A program made the position numbers and the translations under genes. Under the pieces are notes generated by a model, which worked only from the letters and a program-made list of their open reading frames with translations, searched no databases and had not been told where the DNA came from. From Glaciecola amylolytica (GTDB lineage Bacteria; Bacteroidota; Bacteroidia; Flavobacteriales_D; Crocinitomicaceae), in NCBI GenBank assembly GCA_003856375.1, contig CP034120.1:2728001-2792000 (forward strand): a DNA stretch of 64,000 nt. The letters are read 5' to 3'. Position 1 is the stretch's first letter. The number at the start of each line of letters is the position of its first letter. Shown one piece after another: positions 19,465 to 50,263 of this stretch.

Positions 19465-19530
19465 ATCGCTTAATCGAAACCTAAAAGTAATGAGATTTCG
19501 GGGAATAATCCGGTAGTTTGAGAAATTACA

Positions 19531-23908: not shown

Positions 23909-26110
23909 CTAATAAACCACCACTCGATGAGTCGATTTAGCTGCTCCCTGAACCGCATTCAGGATATAACATCCTTTTGCAACATGCATCGGAATATTGA
24001 TCGTTTGGGCTCCGGAAGAAGCCGGAACATCTGTTGTGGAGACAATCGCACCTTTCAGATCCATTACGATCAGCTTCATTCCGATTTCACTGTTTGGAAC
24101 TTCAATCGTTAAATCAGATCCTGTAGCAACCGGGTTCGGAGCAATCGAAACAGAAGAAGTTAATCCATTGTCTTCGATTCCCAGAGTTCCTGTAATGTTG
24201 AAATTGTCAAAATAGAAATTCGAAGAGAAATCGGATGCCCGGAATTCAAATCTGAATTTCGTTTTGTTATCCGCAGCAGAAGTGGTGTAATTGAAACTAG
24301 CCGTTTTCCAGTGAAGATCCGTATTCGGAACAAAATCCGTGTTTCCGACATATCCTGCAGTTACCAATGCAGCTCCGCTTAATGAAAGTCTTTGCTGCCA
24401 TGTTTTTCCGCAATCTCTGGAGGAATAAACGATCAGTTCTTCCGTAATTAGAGGACTCGAGATCGTTTTCGTACCGTAAGCATAATCAAAAGAAATGCTC
24501 ACATTGGACGTATTTCTCAAATCAATGGCCGGAGAGATCAGATAATCTTTCGCATTTCCCAAACGGTCATTGTGAAACCAATCTTCCGTGAAGGCCATCG
24601 CTGAGCTGATATCTCTGAAATTGTTCAGCTTAAAACATGCCGTATTTCCTTTTCCTCCGCTTGCAACGCGGCTAAAAGACGCATCATTGTCTTCCGGATT
24701 ATGGGAAATCCAGAAATCTGCATTCTGATTGAAATCTTCCATTCTCGGACCGGTGTATTCTGCCCACTCACCCTGAATATAAATCATGTTATTCATGGTT
24801 TTAGTATCTGCTCCAACACTATTCGAAACGGTCAGCGTTACGTTGTACCAACCCGGAGCAGCATACGTTACGTTCGGATTTTGTGAAGTGGATGTAGCAG
24901 GACTTCCTCCCGGAAAACTCCAAAGCCATGAAGTGATCCCCGCTTTCCATGAAGCATCTTTAAATGCAATCGGATCGTTGACACAAGCTGTCATCACATT
25001 CGCATTTGATCCTGCGTTTCCCATCAGACCATTCAGATCAGCATAAAAATCGGCTACCGGAATACAAGTTACCGGTGTTGTCGTATTTGTTCCTGTTTCA
25101 AGCAGATTATCCACTGTATACAAATTGTTTCTGCCGCTCGTTACCTGATCCAGAACGTTGTTCATAAAATCCCCCTGCCCTCTTGTAAACATGAATCTGC
25201 AACCGGAGTATTCCATGAAATTCTGTGCGTTGTCAATGACATCATTTGGATACCAGTAATCAGAAGGATTTACACCGTCCACACAGGAATTGGATGCCAG
25301 CTGACAAGTCTGCAATCCAATGCAATTCGGTGTATCTTCAACGCCATCATCAATGTTGCAATTAGTTGCCACATTGGGTGTATTGGTATTTCCCCAGGTA
25401 TGGGACAAGCCCAGATAATGCCCGATTTCGTGGCTTAAAGTACTTGGGTTCAATTGCGTACCCGCAGTTCCGATAGTACCAACATAATTATTTAAAACCA
25501 CGATTCCGTCTCTCCAGAATCCGGTTCCGGTAACATCTGTAGGATAATGAGCAAAACCGGCAACACCGGCATCTCCCATTGTTTTTACGACCCAAATATT
25601 CAGGTACTTTTCACGATCCCATTGATTGACCTTCGAATAGGAATCCCCCATATTGGTGTTGTGGTTGTAGATGTGCTCGATTCCATTGGTGCAATGCCCG
25701 AAAGGGTCCAATGTTGCCAAACGAAATTCAATTCCCACGTCTCCGATAATCGAATCGAAAGGTTCCACGATCAAATTCAGACCTGGATTCATTTTCTGGA
25801 AGTCGCGGTTCAAAATCATCACCTGATTCTGAACCTGTTGATCTGAAATATTTTCGTCTCCATACTCGTGAAGAATATGAAATACAACCGGAATCACACG
25901 AATGGTAGTTGATTTCCCATTGACCAAACGGTTTTCCCGGCAGTGGTTCACCAATTTTCTGTAATCTTCCGCCAATCCCGGATTTTCAGCATATAATTTT
26001 CGTTGTTGTGCTTCTAAGCCGCAACCAATATGTGTTTCCTGGGCAAATGAATTTCCGGTTGAAATCAGCCCCATGATTGAAAACGCATTGAAGAGTAATC
26101 TTTTTCGCAT
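23909..26110 (-). CDS. Secreted M43 (pappalysin-type) metalloprotease with PKD and T9SS type A domains
   Basis: The start at 26110 gives a signal peptide ending near GNSFAQ. The protease domain has the zinc motif HEIGHYLGLSH (ligands His227, His231, His237; catalytic Glu228) and a Met-turn in NFMEYSG. A PKD domain (WLWSFPGGSPATSTSQNP) follows, then a beta-sandwich of the MAM-like/peptidase-associated kind (ISFDYAYGTK, VYSSRDCGKTW). The C-terminus is a type A sorting domain (SIAPNPVATGSDLTIEV to HRVVVY). It is predicted to be an extracellular endopeptidase, related in layout to the larger protease at 44621-50263. Confidence 0.93.
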   Translation of the reverse strand: MRKRLLFNAFSIMGLISTGNSFAQETHIGCGLEAQQRKLYAENPGLAEDYRKLVNHCRENRLVNGKSTTIRVIPVVFHILHEYGDENISDQQVQNQVMILNRDFQKMNPGLNLIVEPFDSIIGDVGIEFRLATLDPFGHCTNGIEHIYNHNTNMGDSYSKVNQWDREKYLNIWVVKTMGDAGVAGFAHYPTDVTGTGFWRDGIVVLNNYVGTIGTAGTQLNPSTLSHEIGHYLGLSHTWGNTNTPNVATNCNIDDGVEDTPNCIGLQTCQLASNSCVDGVNPSDYWYPNDVIDNAQNFMEYSGCRFMFTRGQGDFMNNVLDQVTSGRNNLYTVDNLLETGTNTTTPVTCIPVADFYADLNGLMGNAGSNANVMTACVNDPIAFKDASWKAGITSWLWSFPGGSPATSTSQNPNVTYAAPGWYNVTLTVSNSVGADTKTMNNMIYIQGEWAEYTGPRMEDFNQNADFWISHNPEDNDASFSRVASGGKGNTACFKLNNFRDISSAMAFTEDWFHNDRLGNAKDYLISPAIDLRNTSNVSISFDYAYGTKTISSPLITEELIVYSSRDCGKTWQQRLSLSGAALVTAGYVGNTDFVPNTDLHWKTASFNYTTSAADNKTKFRFEFRASDFSSNFYFDNFNITGTLGIEDNGLTSSVSIAPNPVATGSDLTIEVPNSEIGMKLIVMDLKGAIVSTTDVPASSGAQTINIPMHVAKGCYILNAVQGAAKSTHRVVVY

Positions 26111-26550
26111 GTAGAACAGTTTTATAGAATTAAACAACTTGTCCCGACTGATCGGGATCACTTTGATAAAAATGTGACTATTACGAATCGAAGAGCAGCA
26201 GTATTTTACATGTGTTTAATCCGGACTAAGCTGCTAGCTCCAAGGGTCTTAAAACTCACATGAAGCAAATGTAAATTAAGTATTTTTAACATTTTAGCAC
26301 CTGCTAATCTATTTAGCTGTGTGTATCGAATGGCGATTAAAAGCTATTTGACGGAATCTAAACGGTATTCCATTTTGATTTAAAACCGGACACTAACCTT
26401 TTAGTAGACTGAAAGTTATAGCGAATTGGAATAAAACAGGTGGTTGAAGAGTTTAATTATCACGGAGTCATTGCCCGGAAAGTTTTGAAAGCAAAAAGCC
26501 CAATCTGCAAACGCAAACTGAGCTTTCAATTTTACATTTTCAATTTTGAA
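26111..26550. other. 440-bp intergenic region with hairpins and no confident gene
   Basis: It holds the leader of the M43 gene, a TCCCGA-CTGA-TCGGGA hairpin at 26142-26157, AT-rich sequence, and the hutH-operon terminator near 26493-26526. A plus-strand open stretch around 26429-26578 has no recognisable product and no support as a gene. Confidence 0.5.
26493..26526 (-). terminator. Terminator of the hisS-hutH operon
   Basis: AAAGCTCA (26519-26526) pairs with TGGGCTTT (26495-26502) on the minus strand with one G-U, followed by a short T-run, 25 bp after the last stop. Confidence 0.55.
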
Positions 26551-31733: not shown

Positions 31734-32693
31734 CTACGGTATCAATTCCTGCAATTCAAACTTCGGAGCTCCTTTCACTCCGCCGTCATCATAGAAATCA
31801 ATAAAACGCAGCTTGAAATAACGCCCGTTGACCGTTTTCACGATGAATGTTCTGTTGCTGCTGACAGCATAAACGCCCGTATCGAAGTCATATACTTTCC
31901 AGTCGTATCCGATCACATTGATATTGTTCTTGAAATTGGCCTCAATGATATCAGAATGCTTCAAATCTGCAAAAGGAATGCTTACCTCCTGCACTTTTAC
32001 ACCGTAACGATTGGACAAAACTCCCACAACAGAATATGGAGTGTGTGCATCAAAAACGTGGCAATAGTTTGTAAACAATAAATCCCAGGTTCCTTTATCC
32101 GGTTCAACATCATGAATGGATCCGCTTCCCGTCATAGAGAAATAAGTAAATCCTGCGGTTGAAGATTTTGGAATGGTGTACGTTTGAAAAGAAGTACTGC
32201 TCAGATCTGCAAACTGAATCTCGTATTCCGTATCACTCACTGAAATCACTTTCAATTTTTTCTTACCCATGTTTGTTCCGGTCAAACTTGTTCCCAGATC
32301 AATGGCGTAAACTTTCCCCAAACTCTGCCAATCACCGATTGCTGTTGAATCCAGATTTCCGGTATGAAAATCCCAGGTATACGTTAATCCCGCATCACTT
32401 GTAAGCGCATTGATATCCGTTTCGGAAGAAATTGCAGCTCCCATCACACGTGATTCGTTCAACAATACATGAAAACCATTTTCTCCTGCTTCAAAAGCCA
32501 GATCCCAAACCTCGCGGTTGTTCTGGCGAATGATGGTATTCGTTTCGAGATCGTAATAAATCTGATTGGCATAATCCGACCCGACCACAACCTGAAAAGT
32601 CGTTGCATTTGAAACCGGTTTCTGAACCGGAAGTTCTTTCTTAAAACAAGCACTTACAATCGGAAGTAAGGCTATAAAAATCCACTTTCTCAT
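31734..32693 (-). CDS. hmuY: HmuY-family haem-binding lipoprotein
   Basis: The 319-residue product starts with a lipoprotein signal (IVSAC, Cys16), so it is anchored in an outer membrane leaflet or exposed at the surface. The repeated pattern WDLAFEAG, GTWDLLFTNY and NVIGYDWK is typical of HmuY-like proteins, which bind haem and pass it to a TonB-dependent receptor. It is the last gene of the haem operon and overlaps the receptor stop by four bases. Confidence 0.87.
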   Translation of the reverse strand: MRKWIFIALLPIVSACFKKELPVQKPVSNATTFQVVVGSDYANQIYYDLETNTIIRQNNREVWDLAFEAGENGFHVLLNESRVMGAAISSETDINALTSDAGLTYTWDFHTGNLDSTAIGDWQSLGKVYAIDLGTSLTGTNMGKKKLKVISVSDTEYEIQFADLSSTSFQTYTIPKSSTAGFTYFSMTGSGSIHDVEPDKGTWDLLFTNYCHVFDAHTPYSVVGVLSNRYGVKVQEVSIPFADLKHSDIIEANFKNNINVIGYDWKVYDFDTGVYAVSSNRTFIVKTVNGRYFKLRFIDFYDDGGVKGAPKFELQELIP

Positions 32694-34939
32694 TGCTTCG
32701 ATTTAATCAGGTATGTAATATTGATATAAAAACTTCTTCCCCATGCAATTGGTGCGCTTCCGCTGCTTGAAGCATGCGCTCCGCCTGTTGTTCCGCTTCC
32801 CGCTCTGATATTGGTTACATTCAATAAGTTTTTACCGCCCAGCGAAACGCCGAGTGTTTTCTTCAAAAACCATTGCTGCACCTGAACATCCAATAACTGG
32901 TAATCCGAAATGAACTGCTGTGTTACCGTAGCGTCGTCATTTATAAAATATGCAACTACTTTTCCGGTGTATTTGTAAAATGCACTGAACTTCGTCGTTC
33001 CGTTTTTCAACTGGTAGGAAACATTTGAAACCAATTCAGGTGAGTATGCAAAACGATTCCCTGAATAATTGGATGCTGTCCCGATGTAGTTGAATCCAAC
33101 ATTTACGTTCCATTGTTTTTGTCCTACTTTCAACAAAGATTGAATTCCTTTTGCATAGAACTGATCGATATTGAAATAGCTGTAATTCTTTCCATCAGGT
33201 GTTTGAGACAAACTGATCCGGTTGTGAATATCCTGATAATATGCAGACAATTCGAAGCCTAAATTCCATTTTTTCGGTTCCCAGTTGAAGTTATACCAAC
33301 CCTGAACGTGATTGGCAACTTCCGGCTTCAAATCCGGATTTCCGTAAATTTTGTGGTTGATATCCACAAATTCCATGTACAATTCCTTGATTGACGGTGA
33401 ACGGAATCCGGAAGCAATACTTCCGCGAAGAATGTGTTTCTTCTTCCCTACTTTCACATTCAAAGCCGGCATGAATGCTTCTTTGTATAAAGTATTGTAA
33501 GTAAATCGAAGTCCCGGTTTTATGTGAAGCCAATTCCACGGTGCCCAGTTAAATGTCCCGAAAACAGCATAATCACCGATTTCTTTTTTGCGGTGTTCAA
33601 TGCGGTTTCCGTATCCTGTTTCGTAATTGATGTCGTAACCTACCTCGTAATTGAACTTTTTATCCGGATTGTTTCTGGTCAGAGTGATGCGATTGAAATA
33701 CAACACAAAGCGGGAAGTATCCTGTTCCGAATTTGCCAAAAGCTTGCGGTCCAAAGTTGTCAGATCTGTCATATAAGAGTTCTTTGTCCGTTTGTAATTG
33801 GAATAATTCAACTGCACATCCAATTTCAAGTTTGATTTCAACCAACCGATTACTTCAAGTCCTCCGTTCTGGCGATTCGTTACATATTCATCATCGAAAG
33901 CAGAAACCTGAAAAGGTGCTCTCGGATATCCTCTGTTAACGATTTTCTCGCGGAACAAGTCCAGAGAAGGAATCAGCTCTACTTTTTTGAATTTGTAGGA
34001 ATATTTCAATCCTCCCAAATACTGTTCTTTCATTTTCCATTGCTGGAACCGACCTGAATCCGCAACTTCTTTTTTCGGGAATTCAATCCATTTATCTCCG
34101 GGTGTCCACCCATCGAAAAAATTCCGTGCTCCGTAAGCCGAAATCGAATGGTTCTTAACCCGGGAAGTGATTCCTAAATTCAGATTGTAGTTTCCTACCG
34201 TTTCGTAAAATGCTCCCAGATTTATATCGTAACCCTTGTTCTTGGGTTTCTTTGTGATCAAATTAATGGTACCCGCCATGGCATTGCTTCCATAGTTCGT
34301 ACTTAAAGGTCCTTCAACAATCTCTACCCGTTCGATGTTCGAGAGATTGATCTGACTCAAATCAATGTTTCCGTTCTGACGACCGATAATCGGAACGCCG
34401 TCTATTAATATTTTAACTCCTTCTCCGCCGATTCCAAGCATCGACATTCCGCTTCCCAGAACCTGATCCTGGCTGATGCGGATATTCATTTCATTCTGAA
34501 GTAAATCGCGTAAATTAACTGCTCCCTTTGCTTCGATGGTTGCACGGTCAATCAGCTTTACTTTGTTGGTAGATCCTGTGAGAGATCCTGCTCCAAGCTG
34601 TCCGGTGATGACAACTTCTTCGATGTCTTTCGCATTTGCTTTTAGCTTAATGCTGTGGCTTTTTCCTTTTGAGATGGTATCTACTTCCTGATGAAATCCA
34701 TCCGTATTGACCTTCACAATGACTTGTTGCCCGGTCGTGTAAAAGGATGCAGGAACAACCAATATTCCCAAATCATTCGACTGAACATAACTTGTTTTTT
34801 TTGCGCTGATATCTTGCAGGGCAATTTGTGCAAAAGGTACAGCAACTCCAGCTTCGTCGCTGATATAGAGAGTATCCTGAGCAGAAACAACTCCGCTCAG
34901 AATACTCATTATAAGAAGCAAATATGCTTTTTGCATCAT
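32690..34939 (-). CDS. hmuR: TonB-dependent haem receptor (HmuR-like)
   Basis: The 749-residue receptor has a signal peptide ending VVSAQ, a carboxypeptidase-regulatory-like N-terminal domain (about 22-105), a plug domain starting at EEVVITGQ with ILIDGVPIIGRQ and NYGSNAMAGTINLITK, and a 22-strand-type barrel. The motif GNPDLKPE matches the NPDL motif of haem receptors. It lies between hmuS (7-bp gap) and hmuY (4-bp overlap), which supports haem or haem-protein import energised by TonB. It ends in a charged residue rather than the usual terminal aromatic. Confidence 0.9.
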   Translation of the reverse strand: MMQKAYLLLIMSILSGVVSAQDTLYISDEAGVAVPFAQIALQDISAKKTSYVQSNDLGILVVPASFYTTGQQVIVKVNTDGFHQEVDTISKGKSHSIKLKANAKDIEEVVITGQLGAGSLTGSTNKVKLIDRATIEAKGAVNLRDLLQNEMNIRISQDQVLGSGMSMLGIGGEGVKILIDGVPIIGRQNGNIDLSQINLSNIERVEIVEGPLSTNYGSNAMAGTINLITKKPKNKGYDINLGAFYETVGNYNLNLGITSRVKNHSISAYGARNFFDGWTPGDKWIEFPKKEVADSGRFQQWKMKEQYLGGLKYSYKFKKVELIPSLDLFREKIVNRGYPRAPFQVSAFDDEYVTNRQNGGLEVIGWLKSNLKLDVQLNYSNYKRTKNSYMTDLTTLDRKLLANSEQDTSRFVLYFNRITLTRNNPDKKFNYEVGYDINYETGYGNRIEHRKKEIGDYAVFGTFNWAPWNWLHIKPGLRFTYNTLYKEAFMPALNVKVGKKKHILRGSIASGFRSPSIKELYMEFVDINHKIYGNPDLKPEVANHVQGWYNFNWEPKKWNLGFELSAYYQDIHNRISLSQTPDGKNYSYFNIDQFYAKGIQSLLKVGQKQWNVNVGFNYIGTASNYSGNRFAYSPELVSNVSYQLKNGTTKFSAFYKYTGKVVAYFINDDATVTQQFISDYQLLDVQVQQWFLKKTLGVSLGGKNLLNVTNIRAGSGTTGGAHASSSGSAPIAWGRSFYINITYLIKSKQ

Positions 34940-34946
34940 GATGATA

Positions 34947-35978
34947 TTACAATTGTTCTACCAATTTTCTCCAGGACTCCAATTCAGGAATTCCAGGTTT
35001 GCGTGCTCCGAAAAGCGTACAGATCAATTCTTTTTTCTCATTGAATAACTCCAAAGAAGTCACGATTCCGTCTTCTGTTGGTTTACGAACGATCCACGAT
35101 TGTGCGATTCCGTCTTCTTTTGCATGCAGGTTGAACATCGGATCCAATACATTGATCCACGGACCGTGTTCAACGATATTTTTCACTTCTCCGGTATGAA
35201 TTTGGATCATTCCGGCATTTCCAACGAAAACCATGATCGAAACCTGCTCTTTAGCAGCCAATTCCAATGCTCTTCTCAACGCTTTGTTATCGATTTGCTT
35301 TGCATATGTTTCATCCGGTGCAAAACGCAATGCCTGAGTACGCGTCAATTTGTGGCTCTTCAACAATCCGAAAAATTCGTGTGTATCTTTCAGGTTGATC
35401 CAGGATTCCTGGAATGCTTTCACATCGATTTCGCTGTCCGGCAATTCCGGGCTTTCCAATGGCAGCAAAGCTCCGATTTCCAATTCAGAAGATTGGTTTT
35501 CGTCTTTGTATTTTGCAACCAAAGCATCATACGCTTCTTTGTTGCTTTTGGACTCCAGGTAAATCTTATGTGTAGCAGCTCCGTCAGTTGTAAAAAACTG
35601 CAAACTGTGACGTGGTTTGTCGCCTCCTTCGGTTACTGCAAAAACAGATGCCCATGCACTTGGGAAAATACGTAAATCGATATCTTTTCCTACGAACAAT
35701 GACGCATGCGGTGTGGTGCTGAAGTTTTCGTAAACTCCTTTACGCTCATGCACTACCTCATCATTTCTTGTTAAAGCCATCACATAACCCAACGACTCAA
35801 TTTCTCCAAGAATTGCTACGAATTCAGGACGCAAACGAACTGCAGTTGTTCCAACTCCCAAAGCAACTAATTCTGCTTCGGAAGCATTCAAACGCTTCGC
35901 ATACTCTCTGATTCTCAATTTTGGTTCGCTCTCTTTCAATTGTGCGAAAGCTTCTTTTAGGGACAAAGTTGTTTCCAT
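34947..35978 (-). CDS. hmuS: HemS/HmuS-family cytoplasmic haem-handling protein
   Basis: The 343-residue product has the duplicated HemS/ChuS layout: an N-terminal half (LRIREYAKRLNASEAELVALG) and a C-terminal half with GNAGMIQIHTGEVKNI and WINVLDPMFNLH. No signal peptide is present. The family carries haem away from the ABC importer and in some members degrades it to release iron. It sits 47 bp downstream of hmuV in the same operon. Confidence 0.9.
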   Translation of the reverse strand: METTLSLKEAFAQLKESEPKLRIREYAKRLNASEAELVALGVGTTAVRLRPEFVAILGEIESLGYVMALTRNDEVVHERKGVYENFSTTPHASLFVGKDIDLRIFPSAWASVFAVTEGGDKPRHSLQFFTTDGAATHKIYLESKSNKEAYDALVAKYKDENQSSELEIGALLPLESPELPDSEIDVKAFQESWINLKDTHEFFGLLKSHKLTRTQALRFAPDETYAKQIDNKALRRALELAAKEQVSIMVFVGNAGMIQIHTGEVKNIVEHGPWINVLDPMFNLHAKEDGIAQSWIVRKPTEDGIVTSLELFNEKKELICTLFGARKPGIPELESWRKLVEQL

Positions 35979-36025: not shown

Positions 36026-36847
36026 TCACCCGCCGTGCGGCCTCTTATCTAACAAGTCCGATGAATATGATACATGTCTGTAAAATATTTCTCCATCTAA
36101 TGACTGGATCTGTTCCAGGTCAATCTGATAGGTATTACTCAGAACTTCGGGGCTCATCACTTCATCCACCGTTCCATCCATAATGACCTTTCCTCTCTGC
36201 ATCAATAACACGCGATCCGCGTATTGATAGCACAAATTGATGTCGTGCATGACAACAATCACAGTTCCCCGCTTATCATCCACAAATTTGCGGGCATGTT
36301 TCAATAATTCAATCTGATAACGAACGTCCAGATTGTTCAAAGGCTCATCCAAAAACAAGTATTTGATCGGCTGAATTTCTCCTTCGTTTTCCAACTGCAG
36401 TAAAACCCGTCCGAATTGAACACGCTGTTTTTCTCCACCCGACAGGAAGTTGAATTCGTTGTCCAGAAGAGATTCCAGATTCAATTCGGCTACGATCTTA
36501 TCCGTGATGTGCTTATTGAAGTGTTTTTTTGATTCAGGATAACGGTAGCGCGCCATTTCCAAAACTTCACGAACCGTAAAGTTGGAAGCGATCATGCTTT
36601 CCTGATGCATATATGCTCTGTATTTGGACAAAGCGTCCAAGGTCCAGTTTTTTAAGTCTTTTCCGTAATACGAAATGCTTCCGGTGCTCAGATTAGATCC
36701 GTTGGAAAGCATTTTTACAAGCGTACTTTTCCCTGCTCCGTTCGGGCCGAGAATCACAATAAATTCTTCTTTGTCAGTTGTGAAATCAACCGATTGAAGA
36801 ATAGATCTTCCTTTCACTGTAAACGATATGTTCTTTGCTTCAATCAC
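36026..36847 (-). CDS. hmuV: Haem ABC transporter ATP-binding protein
   Basis: The 273-residue ATPase has Walker A GPNGAGKST near residues 34-42, signature LSGGEKQR, Walker B YLFLDEPLNNLD and the switch histidine in VVMHDINL. It matches HmuV/FecE-type importer ATPases. Its start overlaps the permease stop by four bases, so the two are coupled. It should energise transport through HmuU. Confidence 0.94.
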   Translation of the reverse strand: MIEAKNISFTVKGRSILQSVDFTTDKEEFIVILGPNGAGKSTLVKMLSNGSNLSTGSISYYGKDLKNWTLDALSKYRAYMHQESMIASNFTVREVLEMARYRYPESKKHFNKHITDKIVAELNLESLLDNEFNFLSGGEKQRVQFGRVLLQLENEGEIQPIKYLFLDEPLNNLDVRYQIELLKHARKFVDDKRGTVIVVMHDINLCYQYADRVLLMQRGKVIMDGTVDEVMSPEVLSNTYQIDLEQIQSLDGEIFYRHVSYSSDLLDKRPHGG

Positions 36848-37884
36848 ACTGAAAACTTACGCTTGTGTTTAAAAATAATTGCAATAAAAATCGGAGTTCC
36901 CATCAAGGCGGTAATGATTCCGATCGGAACCTCTGTCGGAGGTAAAATCGTTCTTGAAATCATATCTGCACAAGAAAGAAGAATGGCTCCGAAAAAAGCA
37001 CTGAAAGGTAGTAATAATCGATGATTCGGGCCGGATAAAATGCGAATAATGTGGGGTACAACCAGTCCAACAAAACCAATGACACCCGACATAGAAACGG
37101 AAGCTCCGACCATACATGTCGCACATACAATCACTATTACCTTGATAGTCTTCACTTTATACCCCATGTATTGCGCGTTGCTTTCACCCAATGAAAGTAC
37201 GTTCAAACTCTTCGCCTGCATGAAGATCACAATCATGGGAACAATTGTGAAAATCAATAATAAAATCAGGGAATCGTTATTTGCAGAACCTAAACTTCCC
37301 AGCGTCCAGAATGTCAGATCCCGCAACTGATCGTCCGTAGCCAAAAAGCTCATTAAACCTGTCAATGAGGCCGTTAACGCATTCAATGCTATTCCGGCAA
37401 GAATCAAGGTCAGTGAATTTACTTCACCATTACTCAATGACAAGCGGTAAACAATGAAGGCAACAAATGACGCTCCGACGAAGGCCACTAAAGAAAGGGA
37501 AAGTCCCTCGTTGAAAATCATCAACCAAGGGACTAAACCACTGAATAAAATGAATAAGGATGCAAACAATGAGGCTCCGGTTGAGATTCCTATTAAGGCG
37601 GAATCGACCAGCGGGTTTCTGAAGATTCCCTGCAATGCTGCACCTGAGACTGCTAATCCTGCACCAATAAGACAGGAATAAACCGCTCTCGGAAACCGGA
37701 TGTTGTAAACAACATTGTATTCGATTTCCGTTATTTTCAAATCGGTGTCGAAACCAATTTTTTCAAGCAAACTGCCGAAGACGTGGGAAATAGGGACATG
37801 AACATTCCCAACTGATAGATTAACTACGAAGCAACCTAACACTAAAATCAATAATGAAAGAGCTATTATTCCCTGTCTTGACAT
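36844..37884 (-). CDS. hmuU: Haem ABC transporter permease (FecCD family)
   Basis: The 346-residue permease has about ten hydrophobic segments and FecCD-family motifs such as NPLVDSALIGISTGAS, GSLGSAN and the C-terminal GTPIFIAIIF. This is the BtuC/HmuU fold that dimerises with two HmuV subunits. It lies 4 bp after hmuT and overlaps hmuV, consistent with one complex. Confidence 0.94.
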   Translation of the reverse strand: MSRQGIIALSLLILVLGCFVVNLSVGNVHVPISHVFGSLLEKIGFDTDLKITEIEYNVVYNIRFPRAVYSCLIGAGLAVSGAALQGIFRNPLVDSALIGISTGASLFASLFILFSGLVPWLMIFNEGLSLSLVAFVGASFVAFIVYRLSLSNGEVNSLTLILAGIALNALTASLTGLMSFLATDDQLRDLTFWTLGSLGSANNDSLILLLIFTIVPMIVIFMQAKSLNVLSLGESNAQYMGYKVKTIKVIVIVCATCMVGASVSMSGVIGFVGLVVPHIIRILSGPNHRLLLPFSAFFGAILLSCADMISRTILPPTEVPIGIITALMGTPIFIAIIFKHKRKFSV

Positions 37885-37888
37885 GCTA

Positions 37889-38746
37889 TTATTTAACCTT
37901 TCCGAATTCTTTATTTAATTCAATGATTGCTTCAGCTACACGCGGACCAAATCCACTCAGCAACTGACCATCCATTTGAATCAACGCTTTATTTTTTCCT
38001 GCATTTGTTACAGCCACTCCCGGAACATTGAAAATTCCTTCCGGCCCTAAACTTTGTGCTCCGGATGTAAACATCAAAATCACATCAGGATTTGCTGCAA
38101 TCACAGATTCGCTTGTCAAAGGTTTGAAATCCGTAAACCCTTTTCCTGCGTTTTCACCACCTGCCAAAACAATCATTTTTTCAAGCGGAGTGTTTTCACC
38201 TGCAACCATCAATGTTCCCGCACCACGTGCATAAACGAACAATACTTTCGGTTTTTCAGGCAATTTCGTGATGCTCTTAATATCCGAATCAATCTTAGCA
38301 GTCAATTCTTTTGCAGCATCGGATTTCCCCAACCATTCCGCAACTTCGTTTACCAATACTTTCGATTCTTCAACACTGTTCGGGTGTTTGAAAGTCACCA
38401 ACTCAATTTTCGCCTGCTTCAATTTTGATTTTAAATCAGGAGAAACTTCGTCTTCCAACATCACAACGTGTGTCGGATTCAGTGCTAACAAGCTTTCAAC
38501 CGCCAATTTACGAACGTGTCCCAAATTAGTCAGTTTTTCAGCAGCTGCCGGATAAGTGGAAGTTACATCAACGCCAATGAGTTCCTTTTGGGAACCCACT
38601 GCGTAAATGATTTCTGTAACTGATCCGTTCAAAGAAACAATTCGTTTCTCTATTACTTCTTCTTTTTTCTCTTCGGTTTTTGCACCTGAGTTACATGAAG
38701 CAACTGCAAACGCAAGTCCAAGGAATAGAAATCCAATTTTTTTCAT
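37889..38746 (-). CDS. hmuT: Haem ABC transporter substrate-binding lipoprotein
   Basis: The 285-residue product has a lipoprotein signal (AVASC, Cys18) and a class III periplasmic-binding fold: RIVSLNGSVTEIIYAVGSQKELIGVD, then LNPTHVVMLEDE and SVIAANPDVILMF. It is predicted to deliver haem to HmuU on the periplasmic side. The gene starts 18 bp after the T9SS HmuY-like gene. Confidence 0.92.
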   Translation of the reverse strand: MKKIGFLFLGLAFAVASCNSGAKTEEKKEEVIEKRIVSLNGSVTEIIYAVGSQKELIGVDVTSTYPAAAEKLTNLGHVRKLAVESLLALNPTHVVMLEDEVSPDLKSKLKQAKIELVTFKHPNSVEESKVLVNEVAEWLGKSDAAKELTAKIDSDIKSITKLPEKPKVLFVYARGAGTLMVAGENTPLEKMIVLAGGENAGKGFTDFKPLTSESVIAANPDVILMFTSGAQSLGPEGIFNVPGVAVTNAGKNKALIQMDGQLLSGFGPRVAEAIIELNKEFGKVK

Positions 38747-38764: not shown

Positions 38765-40021
38765 TTAGTGTTGAACTACCAAACGTTGTGTTGATGTTGC
38801 AGCACCATTAGAAACTTGCACCAAATATACTCCGTTTGTGAAGTTTTCTGTAGAAATAGTTGTTGTAGTTAATCCGTTTGAAGCAGCTGTTTCGAAAACA
38901 ACTTGTCCTGTCATACTCACTACTTTCACTGTTGAATTTGCTTTAGAATCCACAACAACTGTAGCTACATTTGCAGCAGGGTTAGGATAAACAGATACAA
39001 ATACATCTTTCTCCAATTCGTTTACAGAAAGTGTTGTCAGGTTTTGCTTGGAGAATACGTTCATATTACTTGAACTTCCTGATGTAAATTTCGTGAACAC
39101 CAATTTCCAGATGTTGTTGTCGTTCGTTTTCACGAAGTAAACCGTACTATCTTCAACTGTTTGAGCCTGAGCATTTTTCCAGCTATAACCGATTACATTT
39201 GCAGCATCGCTGAACGTTTGGGACTGGTAGTTGGTAAAGTTTGGAACGTCTGCTACTGCTGTAACTTTTACTGCCTCAATTCCAACATTATTCAAAATAC
39301 CAAAGGAAAAGTATTGCATATTCGGAGCAATTGTAGCATCATATTGCAAGAATGTGAAATCCCAGCTTGCAGAAACAGGCTCTCTGTCTAATACCGCATT
39401 TGTATTGATCTTGTAATAAACAAAGTTCTTAGTCGTATAAGGAGTCAATACTAAATTCTGTGTTGTTTGTGCTGCTCCGTTTGCCAAATCAGCTGAGATG
39501 ATCTCGTACTTTCCTTGTGTGGAAATCAAGTTCACATAGAATTTCTTCTTTGAGTTATCATTGTATACTACAACAAACACTTTACTTCCGATAACCGAAT
39601 GCGTAGTAGAATTGTATGTTCCCCAACCGAAATCAAACATTCCTGTATTGGAAGCACGTCTCAAAGCACCATTTGCCCAATCAGAATCGTCATTCACAAG
39701 TGGAGTTAACGCTGTGAAATTCACCGTTGCCAATGTGTCAAATGAAGTTGCAGGATCGGAATTAGGAATTGCGTATACTTTTCCAATTTTCGAGTTGAAC
39801 AAGATACTGCTTGTCAATGGATTGGTTTGAGAAGCTGTTGACGCCAACGCGATATCCCAGTTTGTAGAAACATCTGTGTCTTGTTCGTCATTTTGTAAAC
39901 TGTACCAAACGTTCGTTCCGTAACCTGCACCAGTTATCACTGTATCAATTACAACCGGACCTTGAGCCATTGCATTTGATAAAGAAATAAGAGCCGCCGC
40001 GCTAAGTAATATTCTTTTCAT
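38765..40021 (-). CDS. T9SS-exported HmuY-like haem-binding protein
   Basis: The 418-residue product has a standard signal peptide (ends SNAMAQ, no lipobox) and two blocks matching the HmuY pattern seen in the lipoprotein at the other end of the operon (NWDIALAS, ASWDFTFLQY, NVIGYSWKNAQ). The last 80 residues are a T9SS type A sorting domain (VSVYPNPAANVATVVV to QRLVVQH). It is therefore a predicted secreted or surface-attached haemophore rather than a lipoprotein. It is the first gene of the haem operon. Haem binding is inferred from family and context. Confidence 0.88.
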   Translation of the reverse strand: MKRILLSAAALISLSNAMAQGPVVIDTVITGAGYGTNVWYSLQNDEQDTDVSTNWDIALASTASQTNPLTSSILFNSKIGKVYAIPNSDPATSFDTLATVNFTALTPLVNDDSDWANGALRRASNTGMFDFGWGTYNSTTHSVIGSKVFVVVYNDNSKKKFYVNLISTQGKYEIISADLANGAAQTTQNLVLTPYTTKNFVYYKINTNAVLDREPVSASWDFTFLQYDATIAPNMQYFSFGILNNVGIEAVKVTAVADVPNFTNYQSQTFSDAANVIGYSWKNAQAQTVEDSTVYFVKTNDNNIWKLVFTKFTSGSSSNMNVFSKQNLTTLSVNELEKDVFVSVYPNPAANVATVVVDSKANSTVKVVSMTGQVVFETAASNGLTTTTISTENFTNGVYLVQVSNGAATSTQRLVVQH

Positions 40022-40039: not shown

Positions 40040-40072
40040 ATTTATATTAAGTCTAAATTAATCTCCGCAAAT
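40040..40072 (-). promoter_or_regulatory. Fur-box-like dyad over the haem-operon promoter
   Basis: On the minus strand ATTTAGACTTAATATAAAT (40040-40058) is an imperfect 9-1-9 dyad matching the Fur-box shape at 14 of 18 arm positions. A TTTG (40068-40071) is 18 bp upstream of TAATATAA (40042-40049), an imperfect -33/-7 pair, so the dyad would cover the -7 region. Iron-dependent repression is inferred. Confidence 0.5.
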
Positions 40073-40143
40073 TTATCTATTTTCTATATCGGAGGCAATC
40101 CCTATAATCAGCGTAAAAAACTACCCTCCACAGGGTATGTTTT

Positions 40144-40764
40144 TTACTTTTTAAACACCTGATTTTCCATTTCGAACAACAACAGCTCCGACAAGGACTT
40201 CACTTTTAATTTCCTGAAACAATTCTTCCGATGTGTTTGTACTGTATGCGGACTCAAACCCAGCTCTTTACTGATTTCCAAAGTTGATTTCCCGATCAGT
40301 AAGCGATCTACGATTTCAACTTCCCGTTTTGTGAGACTGAAATGAGTTGGTGAGCTGACTTCCTCATCCTGATTCAGAATTTTGCTCCAAACTACTTCGC
40401 AGTAATAATTCTGGTTATGCAAAATTTTCTGAAAGGCTTCTTTCAAATCCTGAACCGTGCAGTTCACATCAATAAATCCGGAAACACCATATGAAACAAG
40501 CTTGGGAAGCTGTGAAACATCTCCATTCAGAATCAGGATTACTTTGATACTCGTATCTTCCGCCGTCCGTTTCAGATTGTTTTCCAATTCCTGGAAATTA
40601 TCCGTGAAATTGTAAACGACCACCAATTCTTTGGCAGGTGTTATCGTATTCAACTGAGGGATTCCCGAATGCCATTCCACATGCAATTCTCCGAAGATCG
40701 TCCGGGTTAATTCCTTGAATCCAAGGCTAATTAATTGGTTTCTGTTGTCAAGATACAGATTCAT
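40144..40764 (-). CDS. LuxR-type transcriptional regulator next to the haem operon
   Basis: The start at 40764 (MNLYLDNRNQ) is preferred because the open frame upstream relies on TTG and overlaps a Fur-like operator. The 206-residue product has a response-regulator-like N-terminal half (about 1-120) and a LuxR/NarL helix-turn-helix (about 143-198: LTKREVEIVDRLL, SPHTVQTHRKN). The strand where a phospho-aspartate is expected reads VVVYNF, so the receiver is probably not phosphorylated in the usual way. It is transcribed in the same direction as the haem operon, 122 bp upstream, and may regulate it. Confidence 0.85.
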   Translation of the reverse strand: MNLYLDNRNQLISLGFKELTRTIFGELHVEWHSGIPQLNTITPAKELVVVYNFTDNFQELENNLKRTAEDTSIKVILILNGDVSQLPKLVSYGVSGFIDVNCTVQDLKEAFQKILHNQNYYCEVVWSKILNQDEEVSSPTHFSLTKREVEIVDRLLIGKSTLEISKELGLSPHTVQTHRKNCFRKLKVKSLSELLLFEMENQVFKK

Positions 40765-40767
40765 GTT

Positions 40768-40786
40768 ATGTAGAATAATTCTAAAT
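40768..40786 (-). promoter_or_regulatory. Fur-box-like dyad before the LuxR-type regulator gene
   Basis: ATGTAGAAT-A-ATTCTAAAT is a 9-1-9 dyad with one mismatched pair, close to the classic Fur layout. It ends 3 bp before the regulator ATG, and a TTTG (minus strand, about 40789-40792) lies just upstream. Binding by Fur is inferred from the sequence only. Confidence 0.6.
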
Positions 40787-40895
40787 AACAAAGGTGAGGT
40801 CTAATTTTACATTCCGCAATACCACAAAAAGGGTAATTACATAATTACGAATGATGTACAGTCAAATTCGTCAAGAAACGAATTCGCAATTCATG

Positions 40896-44620: not shown

Positions 44621-47600
44621 TTATTTGTTCACAATCAAGCTATAATTGTGTATACTGCTTTGAGTTTTTACCTGAAGTACATACTGACCGTTAGCGAATG
44701 CAGTCAGATCGATGACTTGTTCTTTTTCAAAAGAACCAGACTCCAGTTTCCAGACCATTCTTCCGGCAGCATCAATTACCTCAACAGATTGGTACTGAAC
44801 ATCCGAAACCAGGGTGATTATTCCGGAAGTCGGGTTCGGATAGACAAACATTTGTGCTTCATCTTGCTCCGAAAGTGATAAACATTCATCAACCACAATG
44901 CTCGATTGAGCCGTTCCCGAGCAGCCGTTTCCATCTGTGAAAGAATAGGTGATCGGGAAAGTTCCCGCACCACTCGCTGCAGGATTAAAGTTCCCGGAAT
45001 TCACTCCCGTTCCCGAATAATTTCCTCCAAGCGGCGAACCTCCTGTCAATGTAAAGGAAGGTGTGTAGGTACAAACCTGATTCAAAGCTCCCAAACTCAC
45101 ATTCGGGTTGCTGTTTACAGTTACTGTTACCTGATCCGTATTCTGGCATCCGTTTGCATCTGTCCCGGTCAGAGTATAAGTTGTTGTTCCATTTGGAACG
45201 AAAGAAACACCGTTTTGAACTCCGTTGTTCCAACCCAAAGCAGGCGAACCGGAAGAAGTTCCCGTCAAAGTCACCGAAGTTCCGGCACACACACTTTGAT
45301 CAGATCCTGCATTCACCGTAAACGGAGTTGAAGCCGTAATGGTCATTGGTTCAGAAGTTGAAATACACCCCGCAGCTGAAACCGAAACGGTATAAGTACC
45401 TGCAGACGAAACTGTAATCACCGGTGTCAACGATCCTTCAGACCAGGTATTCCCCGAGGAGTAGGACGATGTCAAAGTAATGGTATTTCCCGCACACAAA
45501 ACAAGTGAACTTGCTGTAATCACCGGAGGAGTTGGTGCTCCCGGATCCGTTAAGCTTCCGGAAATAGTATTTGAGACACACCCTGCCCCACTCGTTAAAA
45601 CAATGTTGTATGAACCTGCTCCCAGATTCGGAATATTGGTAGGAAGCGATGCGACCGGAGTTGAACCCGATGCCGTTCCCGACCACGAAATTGTTCCTGA
45701 ACCGCTTCCGTTCACAGCAATTGATCCTGTATTTGTAGCACAAGCAGTAGGACTTGTTACAGTTCCCAATGTAATTGCCGGTGTTGGATTCACCGTTACT
45801 GAAATTGAATTGCTGTTTGCACTCTGGCATCCGGAAGCATTACTAACCTGAACCGTGTAAGTTCCGGCAGTAGCAGCTGTAATCGTTTGCGTTGTAGCTC
45901 CATTCGACCACAAATAAGATGTTCCGGTTGTGGAAGTCAAAGTCACCGAACTTCCCGAACAGAAAGTAGTTGCTCCACCCGCTGTAATCGTAGGTGCAGT
46001 TGGTATCGGATTCACCGTCACTGAAATTGAATTACTGTTTGAACTCTGGCATCCGGAAGCATTGCTGACCTGAACGGTATAAGTTCCGGCAGTTGTCACC
46101 GGAATGGATTGCGTTGTAGCTCCGTTCGACCACAAATAAGACGTTCCGGCTGTGGAAGTCAAAGTCACGGAACTTCCCGCACAGAAAGTAGTTGCTCCGC
46201 CAGCTGTAATCGTAGGCGCAGTTGGAGTCGGATTCACTGTTACGCTGATCGAATTACTATTCGGACTCTGACATCCGGAAGCACTCACAACTTTACAAGT
46301 ATATGTTCCGGCAGTTGTCACCGGAATGGATTGCGTTGTTGCTCCGGTCGACCACAGATAAGATGTTCCGGCAGTGGAAGTCAAGGTAACAGAACTTCCC
46401 GCACAGAAAGTGGTTGCTCCGCCTGCTGTAATTGTAGGTGCTGAAGGAAGCGGATTGACCGTTACCACAATCGAATTACTATTCGGGCTCTGGCATCCGG
46501 CAGCACTGATTACTTTACAAGTATATGTTCCGGCAGTTGTAACTGAAATAGATTGTGTCGTTGCTCCGGTCGACCATAGGTAAGAGTTTCCGGATGTAGA
46601 AGTCAAAGTCACGGAACTTCCCGCACAAAACGTGATTGCTCCACCAGCTGTAATGGTTGGTGCTGTTGGTGTCGGATTGACCGTAACCGTAGTTGCTGCG
46701 CTTGCAGCACTTTGACAGCCCGCTGCACTTGTAACCTGAACGGTATACGCTCCGGCTGTTGTTGCAGTAATCGTTTGACTCGTAGCACCATTTGACCACA
46801 AATAAGACGCTCCGGCACTGGAAGTAAGTGTTACTGATCCTCCGGCACAGAATGTTGTGGTACCTCCGGTCGTAACAGTTGGTGCTGCCGGAACAGCATT
46901 TACAGTTACATAATTGGTCATCGTACTGGTATTCGATCCGGCACCGTTTGTTGCTGTCAGAACCACATTGTACGTTCCCGCTGTGGAATATGTCACCGTA
47001 GGACTTGCAGCAGTAGAAGTTGGAGGTGTTCCACCAGGGAAAGACCAGGAATAAGACGTTGGTGATCCGGTAGAAGTATTGGTATATGTTACACTTTGTC
47101 CGGCACAAACAGAAGTAACTGTTGTGGTGAAACTTGGTGTTGGCGGAGTAGCAACCGCCACTCCCGTAATATTGATATTGTCGACGTAAATGTTGTTTCC
47201 GTATGCCGATAGATTCTTAAACGCAACAATCACATTTGCCTGTCCCACATACGGAGTCAGATTCACAGTTTCTGTTCTCCATTGAGCCGCAGTGGTAGGA
47301 ATGAAAGCATTGGTAGTGTTTGTGGCAGTAGCCAAGGTAGCTCCTGACTTCGAATAAACACTCGTAAATGTCAAGCCGCAATCAGTAGAAACCAACACTT
47401 CCAAACCATCCGTACTTCCGTTATTGTATCGTGCGTAGGCAACACTAAATGTCAATTGAGCAGATGAATACCCGGTAAAGATCAACGGTTTTATTTTCAC
47501 AACATCATCATCCGCGTCTTCAAACTGGTAATTATCAAACCACATCGAATTTCCTGCAGTAGGGGCCAATCCTACAGTTGCTGAACGTGCCCAGGTTGTT

Positions 47601-50263
47601 GTGGAGTTATTGTTATTCTGAATACTCCAGCCTGTAGGCGGAAAAGTAGCTGTTGTAAATCCTTCTGTCAATGGCAATGCCGATGCAGTAGATGAAACAA
47701 CGGTGATATACCCTGTTTTTGTTTCCGTATCAGAACCATTTGCATTGGTTGCAACAAGTGTTACAGCATATGTTCCCGCCGTATTGTATGTAACTGTTGG
47801 GTTTGTTGCCGTAGACGTTGATGGAGTTCCTCCGGTAAAAGTCCACGAATAGGACGTTGAAAACGTAGACAAATTGGTAAAAGCAATGGAAGAACCCTGG
47901 CAAACAGTTGTTTGAGCTGCAGAAAAATCTGCCACAGGAGAACTCACAACTCCCAAACCGTTCAATACAAAATTGTACGTTCCTTCATCACAGTCATTGG
48001 TTCCGAACTGAATATTTCCGGTGAAATTTCCGGCAGCATTCGGTGAAAATACAACCGTAAATGTGGTGCTTGAACCCGGAGTTACAGTAGTCGTTCCGAA
48101 ACCGGTTCCAAGAGAAAATCCTGTTCCCGTTACAGTAATCGGATTCGTCAGTGTTAAATTGGTTGTTCCGGTATTGGTGATCGTAAATGTGGCAGTTGTC
48201 GATCCTCCGGATTGCGTATTGGCAAAAGTGTAAGATCCGCCATCAAGAACTTCAACACCTGCAGAAGCCAATTGGATTTCTCCTGGTGTTGTTCCTTCAA
48301 ATTTCACATTATCAATGAAAATATTGTTTCCGTTTGCCGAAACACCTCTGAAACGGAAGCGCAGATTCTTGGAAGTTGCACCAACATAGGACATCAAACT
48401 GATCGTTTCTGTTCTCCAGTCGGCAGCAGCTGTCGGGAAATATTCCGTTCCAAGAATCGTTGCATTTTGATACAAAAACGGAGTTGCATTTCCTGTTTTA
48501 CTGTAAACGTTTGTCCACGTTGTTCCGCAATCGGTAGAGATCTGAACAATTAACTGATCGTTTGAAGTAGCGGTTCGTTTTCTATATGCCACGTCGAATT
48601 TCAAAGTTGCTGCAGTCGCATTACACGGCAATAAAAACACCGGAGTATACAAATCTTCGTTCGTAGTGGAACCATTTCCATAACATGGAACCTGAGCAAT
48701 GTTGTTGGTAAAAGTTCCCGTTGAAGAAACTCCTGAAGCCGGAGACCATTTGAAACAATCTCCGTTCACGTTATCGATTCGCCATTTCACATCCGGAGGA
48801 AATGACTGTCCTTCGAAATCCTGTGTATAGTTCGGCATGATTCCGTTTGAAACCACGAAATCAATTCCTGAAGTATCATACACCGCATACGGATCAGCAA
48901 CACCATTCGGCAAAGTGGAATAAGCTCTGAAAGAATGTGTTCCCAACGCCGCTGTAAAAGCAGGTAAAGCAACAGTAGCGGAAGCATTCGGACTCAAATT
49001 TCCGGTCCAGCTGAATGTTACAGCAGTTCCGTTATCGACCTTATATGAAATGGTTGCAGCAGTTAAATTATTCGATCCGCGGTTTCTCAATTGCACACTT
49101 GGAGTAATCGCTCCCGCACAATTATCCCCTCTCGGTGCAAAAACATCCGTCACGGAAGCATCACTCGGATTCGGAGGTGTACACGCATCGGAATTGATTA
49201 AAGCAACCCGCATCGGAGAACCTTCCAACACAGCTCTCATACGCTGTTTTTGGTCATTGGTAAACACATTCATACAAGCGTCGTCTGTGTAATCCATGTA
49301 ATTCTGAATCATATCCGGACCTTGATCAGGAGCAGCTGTGCACGAATTTTGTCCCGTCGGACAGCCATAATTCGGAGCATTTGCAGTCGGAGTATCATTA
49401 CAATAATCTGTCGCATTGCAGTTACCATCGCCCCAAATATGGCGCAAACCAAGCCAGTGACCGATTTCATGCGTTGCAGTTCTTCCCTGATTGTATGGTC
49501 CCGGATATCCGGTTACAGAGCTTTTCCCGATTGAATTATACAGGAAAACAACTCCATCCGTTGCAGCAGCAGGAGTTCCACATCCCATTCCACCAATCGG
49601 TGATTGAGGAAACTGCGCATATCCCAAAATTCCTCCGCTGATATTGCACAGCCAGATATTCATGTATTTATCCGGAGACCAGCCTCTTGTAGCCGTAGGG
49701 GTTCCGTTATTGTAAGTATATGTTTTGATTGTTGCGTCGATGTAATTGGTTGAATACGGCGGAGCTGTAAACGATGCTGAAGTACGATTGATGCGGTTTA
49801 CACCATTTTCTCCGTTCGGAAATGCGGAACCATCAGGTCGTCTTTTTGACAAACAAAATTCGATTTGAGTATCTGCACCAACAGCATTTGTATTCCAACC
49901 GTTTGATCCGAACATTCGACGGAAATCTTCGTTCAACACATCAATTTGTGATTGGATTGCAGCATAACTGACATTGGTTCCCGAACCAACTGCTTCCCCG
50001 TTATGAATGACGTGAACGACTACCGGAATCTGGTATACTCCTCCGATAATTTTTCCGGCAACAGGATTGCTGAGTTCCGACTGAAGCCATTGTTCAAACT
50101 GGGCACTTGATTCTAATTCCGGGTGGTTGGCGTGCAGGATTGCATCGTTTTCATCTGTGTAACATCGGACCACACCATTTGTCTGACCGAATACTCCATA
50201 AGAGAGCACCGTGAAAAACAAACATGCGACGAATGCACGTAGTTTTACTCCGTTAGTTTCCAT
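44621..50263 (-). CDS. Giant secreted M43 metalloprotease with PKD, repeat and T9SS type A domains
   Basis: The 1880-residue product has a signal peptide ending SYGVFGQ. The M43 catalytic domain holds HEIGHWLGLRH (zinc ligands His265, His269, His275; Glu266) and a Met-turn in NYMDYTD. A CARDB-like region, two MAM-like sandwiches (FRGVSANGNNIFIDNVKF, FKNLSAYGNNIYVDNINI), an abnormal-spindle-like beta domain, PKD domains (WTFTGGTPSTS, WSFPGGTPPTS) and five 74-residue Ig-like repeats (1129-1498) follow. More Ig-like modules precede the type A sorting domain (MFVYPNPTSGIITLVS). It is predicted to be a surface or secreted endopeptidase. Confidence 0.92.
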   Translation of the reverse strand: METNGVKLRAFVACLFFTVLSYGVFGQTNGVVRCYTDENDAILHANHPELESSAQFEQWLQSELSNPVAGKIIGGVYQIPVVVHVIHNGEAVGSGTNVSYAAIQSQIDVLNEDFRRMFGSNGWNTNAVGADTQIEFCLSKRRPDGSAFPNGENGVNRINRTSASFTAPPYSTNYIDATIKTYTYNNGTPTATRGWSPDKYMNIWLCNISGGILGYAQFPQSPIGGMGCGTPAAATDGVVFLYNSIGKSSVTGYPGPYNQGRTATHEIGHWLGLRHIWGDGNCNATDYCNDTPTANAPNYGCPTGQNSCTAAPDQGPDMIQNYMDYTDDACMNVFTNDQKQRMRAVLEGSPMRVALINSDACTPPNPSDASVTDVFAPRGDNCAGAITPSVQLRNRGSNNLTAATISYKVDNGTAVTFSWTGNLSPNASATVALPAFTAALGTHSFRAYSTLPNGVADPYAVYDTSGIDFVVSNGIMPNYTQDFEGQSFPPDVKWRIDNVNGDCFKWSPASGVSSTGTFTNNIAQVPCYGNGSTTNEDLYTPVFLLPCNATAATLKFDVAYRKRTATSNDQLIVQISTDCGTTWTNVYSKTGNATPFLYQNATILGTEYFPTAAADWRTETISLMSYVGATSKNLRFRFRGVSANGNNIFIDNVKFEGTTPGEIQLASAGVEVLDGGSYTFANTQSGGSTTATFTITNTGTTNLTLTNPITVTGTGFSLGTGFGTTTVTPGSSTTFTVVFSPNAAGNFTGNIQFGTNDCDEGTYNFVLNGLGVVSSPVADFSAAQTTVCQGSSIAFTNLSTFSTSYSWTFTGGTPSTSTATNPTVTYNTAGTYAVTLVATNANGSDTETKTGYITVVSSTASALPLTEGFTTATFPPTGWSIQNNNNSTTTWARSATVGLAPTAGNSMWFDNYQFEDADDDVVKIKPLIFTGYSSAQLTFSVAYARYNNGSTDGLEVLVSTDCGLTFTSVYSKSGATLATATNTTNAFIPTTAAQWRTETVNLTPYVGQANVIVAFKNLSAYGNNIYVDNINITGVAVATPPTPSFTTTVTSVCAGQSVTYTNTSTGSPTSYSWSFPGGTPPTSTAASPTVTYSTAGTYNVVLTATNGAGSNTSTMTNYVTVNAVPAAPTVTTGGTTTFCAGGSVTLTSSAGASYLWSNGATSQTITATTAGAYTVQVTSAAGCQSAASAATTVTVNPTPTAPTITAGGAITFCAGSSVTLTSTSGNSYLWSTGATTQSISVTTAGTYTCKVISAAGCQSPNSNSIVVTVNPLPSAPTITAGGATTFCAGSSVTLTSTAGTSYLWSTGATTQSIPVTTAGTYTCKVVSASGCQSPNSNSISVTVNPTPTAPTITAGGATTFCAGSSVTLTSTAGTSYLWSNGATTQSIPVTTAGTYTVQVSNASGCQSSNSNSISVTVNPIPTAPTITAGGATTFCSGSSVTLTSTTGTSYLWSNGATTQTITAATAGTYTVQVSNASGCQSANSNSISVTVNPTPAITLGTVTSPTACATNTGSIAVNGSGSGTISWSGTASGSTPVASLPTNIPNLGAGSYNIVLTSGAGCVSNTISGSLTDPGAPTPPVITASSLVLCAGNTITLTSSYSSGNTWSEGSLTPVITVSSAGTYTVSVSAAGCISTSEPMTITASTPFTVNAGSDQSVCAGTSVTLTGTSSGSPALGWNNGVQNGVSFVPNGTTTYTLTGTDANGCQNTDQVTVTVNSNPNVSLGALNQVCTYTPSFTLTGGSPLGGNYSGTGVNSGNFNPAASGAGTFPITYSFTDGNGCSGTAQSSIVVDECLSLSEQDEAQMFVYPNPTSGIITLVSDVQYQSVEVIDAAGRMVWKLESGSFEKEQVIDLTAFANGQYVLQVKTQSSIHNYSLIVNK
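45770..46879 (-). repeat. Five tandem 222-bp repeats inside the giant M43 protease gene
   Basis: Five units of 74 codons each share FCAGSSVTLTS, SYLWSNGATTQ and TAGTYT. The DNA anchor at GCTCC(A/G)TTCGACCAC recurs 222 bp apart (45897, 46119). The unit is clearly related to the 72-residue repeat at 9354-11081 but two codons longer. Confidence 0.9.

Follow-up and report, generated by a model that had tools for sequence, protein, structure and literature searches.

The window, by which we mean the whole analysed stretch of 64,000 nt, contains an operon on the minus strand (40021-31734) that begins with a T9SS-sorted HmuY-like protein, here called T9Y, and ends with an HmuY-like lipoprotein, here called LipY. 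The best explanation, to which we assign a probability of roughly 0.6, is that T9Y is a two-repeat haemophore that is exported by the T9SS and then either released or held at the surface, that LipY is its old two-repeat lipoprotein paralogue working with the TonB-dependent receptor HmuR, and that haem passes from T9Y to LipY/HmuR, from there to HmuTUV and finally to HmuS. This explanation is built on the gene order, the sorting signals, homology, tandem repeats, a conserved T9Y-HmuR-LipY core and a tree with two clades, all of which were observed in the analysis.

Operon layout and sorting signals

T9Y is followed by HmuT, HmuU, HmuV, HmuS, HmuR and LipY (Table 1), and the gaps between the seven genes, calculated from their coordinates, are 18, 4, -4, 47, 7 and -4 nt. 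For HmuV, the top NCBIfam model was a haem ABC ATPase, with 249 bits slightly short of the cut-off of 261. For HmuR, all NCBIfam receptor models remained under their cut-offs. A third HmuY-like gene was not found in the genome: PF14064 retrieved one gene, and the T9Y protein as query (E <= 1) retrieved only T9Y and LipY. A ferrochelatase is present in the genome, and thus the imported haem may be needed more for its iron than as haem. The LuxR-type gene next to T9Y adjoins it in 9 of 40 family loci as well. The candidate promoter has the form TTG-N20-TAAATTTG, which we take to be the Bacteroidota-type pattern. The scans for promoters (5 sites in the window versus 6.45 expected) and for terminators (6 versus 7.0) were both not above chance.

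Table 1. Features of the operon and its upstream region (window positions)
Feature	Position	Strand	Basis and remarks
LuxR-type regulator	40144-40791	-	GerE 62.8 bits; directly upstream of T9Y, same strand
Candidate terminator between LuxR-type gene and T9Y	40122..40137	-	Terminator scan
Candidate promoter	40068..40098	-	Pattern scan
T9Y	38765..40021	-	One ORF, 418 aa; signal peptide, two HmuY repeats, T9SS type A CTD
T9Y signal peptide, residues 1-19	39965..40021	-	Judged by eye
T9Y HmuY repeat 1, includes His141 (39599-39601)	39488..39964	-	Profile comparison
T9Y HmuY repeat 2	39023..39487	-	Pfam and profile comparison
T9Y T9SS C-terminal sorting domain, residues 344-416	38774..38992	-	Pfam and NCBIfam
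HmuT, haem-type periplasmic binding lipoprotein	37889..38746	-	Peripla_BP_2 107.5 bits
HmuU permease	36844..37884	-	FecCD 305.8 bits
HmuV ATPase	36026..36847	-	ABC_tran
HmuS, HemS/ChuX type	34947..35978	-	PF05171 255 bits
HmuR, TonB-dependent receptor	32690..34939	-	Plug 74 bits
LipY, lipoprotein with two HmuY repeats	31734..32693	-	PF14064 95.5 bits

The signal peptide of T9Y is directly followed by Gln20, a residue shared by all 32 of the 32 family rows. At the C-terminus, Por_Secre_tail matched residues 344-416 with 54.5 bits (cut-off 27) and TIGR04183 matched residues 344-417 with 51.4 bits (cut-off 23). The genome encodes SprA of the T9SS, and at least 150 Por_Secre_tail matches were counted in it (150 of 234 candidates scored). 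With a signal peptide, a TIGR04183 match and a T9SS in the genome, T9Y is predicted to be a T9SS type A cargo. At one orthologous locus (L129), the CTD profile built here gave no match; the tail is CTD-like by eye.

The N-terminus of LipY, MRKWIFIALLPIVSAC, was judged by eye to be a lipobox-type start. The lipobox cysteine, Cys16, is present in 50 of 50 rows, and with it LipY is a predicted outer-membrane lipoprotein. The C-x-K-x-E start is invariant across 30 rows and, in our assumption, resembles a surface-export signal of Bacteroidota lipoproteins. This resemblance suggests that T9Y and LipY may both face outward.

Two long proteins elsewhere in the window contain the motif HEIGHxxGLxHxW, which is presumably that of an M43-type metalloprotease. 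One of them (44621-50263, minus strand) has a Por_Secre_tail match, and the tail of the other (23909-26161, minus strand) is CTD-like by eye only.

HmuY repeats and candidate haem ligands

Comparison with PF14064, for which the curated cut-off is 27 bits, yielded 95.5 bits for LipY and 23.8 bits for T9Y (residues 198-318, E 5e-5), so that T9Y stayed under the cut-off. The orthologues of T9Y did not yield uniform scores: L144 passed with 42 bits, and for L150 a match was absent at E <= 0.01. Profile-profile alignment of the T9Y family (32 rows) with the LipY family (30 rows) covered 297 columns with a probability of 100 and an E value of 7e-44. Because of this match and of the score of L144, T9Y was assigned to the HmuY family, and by sequence profiles it is HmuY-like. 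The proposal of the preliminary description that HmuY-like proteins stand at both operon ends, the first carrying a T9SS CTD and the last a lipobox, is thus borne out by the profiles, the CTD scores and the PF14064 score of LipY.

In the PDB, the T9Y profile matched the HmuY-type chains 8b6a (E 5e-4) and 3h8t (E 0.002), and the LipY profile matched 8b6a with an E value of 9e-10. AlphaFold2 models were confident for T9Y without its tail (pLDDT 92.3, pTM 0.90) and for LipY (pLDDT 93.9, pTM 0.86). In the Foldseek search with the LipY model, HmuY-type structures occupied ranks 1-10 with E values of 5e-6 to 6e-5 and TM-scores of at most 0.5. With the T9Y model they occupied ranks 1-6 with E values of 0.0066-0.038, none at or below 0.001, and with low TM-scores. 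In the structural comparison with HmuY that had been proposed earlier, the nearest PDB neighbours of a confident model were of the HmuY type, but the E values and TM-scores were weak; an HmuY fold of T9Y is neither refuted nor established by them.

Without tail or leader, T9Y and LipY are about 300 residues long each, compared with 191-238 residues for the listed HmuY-type chains of the PDB, and both proteins consist of two repeats. Repeats 1 and 2 of T9Y matched each other with a probability of 94.7 (E 5.7e-8), and the similarity between the two repeats of LipY was weaker (probability 81, E 1e-5). Between the proteins, the repeats corresponded in order, with E values of 1e-17 for the two first repeats and 1e-35 for the two second repeats. 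When repeats were used singly as profiles, LipY repeat 2 matched the P. gingivalis HmuY chain at both of its ends. T9Y repeat 1 weakly matched both ends of 8b6a, T9Y repeat 2 weakly those of 3h8t, and LipY repeat 1 matched the N-terminal part only (E 0.95). Each repeat is most simply read as one HmuY domain, which would explain the poor superposition of one-domain HmuY on the models.

The only histidine within residues 20-333 of the window T9Y is His141. It is conserved in every one of the 55 rows and lies in repeat 1, a little ahead of the last strands. LipY instead conserves Met84 (43 of 50 rows) and His212 (34 of 50 rows). The haem ligands of P. gingivalis HmuY are His134 and His166, and other members use two methionines, according to excerpts of PMC11967795. 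None of these ligands could be aligned with His141 by sequence, as the alignment fails in the central part of the domain. His141 is a candidate haem ligand.

Distribution of the pair and exchange of T9Y

Three samples were analyzed, namely 150 genomes of the family, the best 80 of 355 relatives among named genomes, and 295 genomes sampled evenly across the class. In the family, the identical 44 genomes carry a T9Y match and a PF14064 match, and in one of them (G129) the sole PF14064 match is T9Y itself. T9Y, HmuR and LipY follow one another in this order on one strand in 37 of 40 fetched family loci, and the other three loci run off the contig. HmuTUVS lie between T9Y and HmuR/LipY in 13 of the 40.

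Among the loci of the best 80 of 355 named relatives, 67 have the order T9Y-HmuR-LipY, 17 of them with TUVS. The exceptions are three loci with T9Y-HmuR and then the contig end, one with HmuR-LipY-T9Y, one with LipY alone at a contig edge, and eight without HmuR and LipY. Six of these eight have less than 1.3 kb of contig downstream; in L095 and L133 neither gene was found despite about 9.7 kb of downstream sequence. The named relatives include Chitinophagaceae, Cytophagaceae, Cryomorphaceae, Sphingobacteriales and one Bacteroidales record.

In the class sample, 102 of 295 genomes matched the T9Y profile at E <= 1e-10, and removal of two with LipY-type matches only left 100 genomes with T9Y. 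Long LipY was found in 103 genomes, both proteins in 99, and PF14064 in 108. At 92 of the 104 T9Y matches, LipY follows within 15 kb on the strand of T9Y; at the remaining 12 it lies upstream (3), on the other strand (2) or is missing within 15 kb (7). In the three samples, the two families were almost always found as a pair beside a TonB receptor of one kind (37 of 40 loci, 67 of the best 80 of 355, and 99 of 100 T9Y genomes with the long LipY as well). The view that a T9SS-sorted HmuY paralogue is uncommon has to be abandoned, as T9Y occurs in 100 of the 295 class genomes. T9Y-HmuR-LipY is a conserved core, and HmuTUVS is one among several additions to it. A chance pairing in the operon is ruled out by the gene order kept in other genera and families; the match itself is not a chance one either, as orthologues of both proteins recur jointly elsewhere. 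In about one third of the sampled class genomes, these results suggest, two HmuY proteins of two repeats each, one of them T9SS-sorted, form a unit around a TonB receptor. A possible contribution of the T9SS to haem uptake becomes testable in harmless environmental strains.

The genes between T9Y and HmuR were clustered over 69 loci and named from one representative each. The clusters were CbiX (17), PepSY_TM-like (15), DUF6607 (12), DUF6686 (10), an unnamed membrane protein (5) and DoxX-like, below its cut-off (4). Examples of CbiX-type proteins are L044:10161-11114 (by eye) and L104:11212-12252 (60.9 bits); such a protein could possibly provide an iron- or metal-handling step on tetrapyrroles. 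Three loci showed further peculiarities. In G205:C1:3560757-3561736 (minus strand), the LipY match is split across two frames and one match contains two TAG, and the T9Y match beside it is intact. In locus L077, LipY is followed by a second, shorter LipY-type frame (17266-18231 and 19056-19529), which makes three HmuY-like genes. In L118 (14514-18310), the genes for HmuS, V, U and T are found downstream but on the other strand and run towards T9Y-HmuR-LipY.

A tree was calculated in which the window and 54 of the 80 loci contributed 55 T9Y rows, and the window and 49 loci contributed 50 LipY rows. The 105 rows formed two clades, T9Y and LipY, with 100/100 support. A recent duplication in this genome is ruled out by this topology, and the tree characterizes T9Y and LipY as an old pair of paralogues.

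Seven Fluviicola-like loci contain T9Y of two types. The first type (window, L035 and L036) is 67-73% identical and the second (L039, L041, L042 and L043) 83-88%, and the identity between the types is 42-49%. Over the same pairs, the identities are 75-90% for LipY, 82-92% for HmuR and 87-97% for HmuS. Between the window T9Y and the second type, the HmuY repeats are 39-45% and the CTD 63-71% identical. The T9Y of L035 belongs to the first type, yet the rest of this operon together with the LuxR-type gene nests within the second group. In the operon tree without T9Y, L035 is sister to L043 (99.6/98; next node 100/100). In the T9Y tree, the four sequences of the second type are grouped without L035 (100/100), the placement of which within the first type is poorly resolved. 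The DNA identity of L035 and L043 is 78-90% along the operon and 49-64% over T9Y. By these comparisons, T9Y alone was affected in the Fluviicola-like operon, either by replacement or by the sorting of two old alleles. If both types are functional, both would operate with a LipY and an HmuR that hardly differ. The loci constitute a natural swap experiment, with two T9Y types alongside nearly the same receptor. We tentatively hypothesize, with less confidence than doubt, that T9Y is an exchangeable capture cassette that can give way to a version of less than 50% identity, with LipY, HmuR and the other operon genes inherited vertically. The cell would then adjust its haem source, or evade predators, phages or cheaters, at the outermost step, leaving the receptor untouched.

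Known systems and alternative explanations

The HmuY literature that was found deals with Porphyromonas, Tannerella, Prevotella and Bacteroides, and in addition with F. psychrophilum and F. columnare. P. gingivalis HmuY-HmuR (PDB 3h8t, 6ewm) resembles the present system in that an HmuY-family protein lies beside a TonB receptor and that profile matches connect it to LipY and T9Y, but its HmuY has one repeat and a chain of 191 residues. The P. gingivalis-type hmu operon is described in excerpts of PMC10434189 as HmuY, HmuR, a CobN-type HmuS, and ExbB-type and DUF2149 genes, with TUV as membrane proteins of other families. This composition was not found here, where S is of the HemS type and T, U and V are parts of an ABC transporter. 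The same source describes a T9SS protein gene after hmuY in P. intermedia that is induced upon iron depletion. The arrangement of the hmu genes varies among Porphyromonas species, and two or three HmuYs occur in some of them (excerpts of PMC12106395). In P. endodontalis, a T9SS-CTD gene, POREN0001_0445, is located upstream of hmuY in the same operon; its product is set apart by its description as beta-barrel-like and not HmuY (excerpts of PMC11208336). F. psychrophilum has the HmuY-like haem binder HfpY and the TonB receptor HfpR with a DoxX-family gene between them; excerpts of PMC9331221 describe one HmuY-like protein and mention no T9SS-sorted partner.

Another close precedent is F. columnare C6N29_01035, which by description combines PF14064 and Por_Secre_tail within one protein; Table 1 of PMC9618737 lists no second HmuY or TonB receptor at a neighbouring locus tag. 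A T9SS-secreted HmuY as such has thus been published before. A paired two-repeat HmuY system was not found in the literature on HmuY, T9SS and haemophores, on Fluviicola-like genera and on tandem HmuY, a search that lay mostly outside subscription journals. Nor did this search bring up the T9Y-HmuR-LipY core, a double HmuY repeat, an invariant His141 or an exchange of T9Y only in the Fluviicola operon.

According to the best explanation, a capture of haem in two stages, T9Y would be exported by the T9SS, released or kept at the cell surface, and would capture haem outside the cell. The haem would be handed to LipY and HmuR and then pass via HmuTUV to HmuS. We infer haem as the ligand, the actual export and the direction of transfer from the sorting signals, the family and the neighbours. 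This explanation is in line with the neighbouring genes, which encode an HmuS of the HemS type (255 bits) and an ATPase of the haem type, and with the 1:1 haem binding of HfpY, a related HmuY-like protein of F. psychrophilum (excerpts of PMC9331221). The explanation is weakened by several results. Deletion of the T9SS-secreted HmuY in F. columnare left growth in two media and virulence unchanged (excerpts of PMC9618737), T9Y stays under the PF14064 cut-off, its Foldseek matches are weak, the ligands known from HmuY could not be mapped, 7 of 104 T9Y matches are without LipY within 15 kb, and L095 and L133 lack both partners.

Alternatively, T9Y could be a surface sink, store or adhesin for haem or haemoproteins that hands nothing over, and LipY and HmuR would act alone. 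The exchange of T9Y for a version of less than 50% identity with LipY and HmuR unchanged fits this alternative, as it argues against a close lock-and-key fit among them, and HfpR of F. psychrophilum can import haem without HfpY (excerpts of PMC9331221). The near-obligatory pairing of T9Y with long LipY, in 99 of 100 T9Y genomes, would not be expected, and we regard this alternative as unlikely. Even less probable is that the ligand is another tetrapyrrole, a corrinoid or porphyrin, taken up in a Btu-like manner. HmuR scored 103 bits with a TonB-B12 model versus 101 bits with a haem model, both far under cut-off, the top model for HmuU, also under cut-off, was BtuC, and CbiX-type genes occur in 17 of 69 loci; however, HmuS of this operon and the top model of its ATPase are of the haem type. 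Finally, a T9Y that no longer binds a ligand and is retained otherwise, for example as a surface structure under diversifying selection, would agree with the weak PF14064 score, the weak fold match and the single histidine, but this is very improbable in view of the invariance of that histidine in 55 of 55 rows and of the position of T9Y in haem-type loci, which is kept across families.
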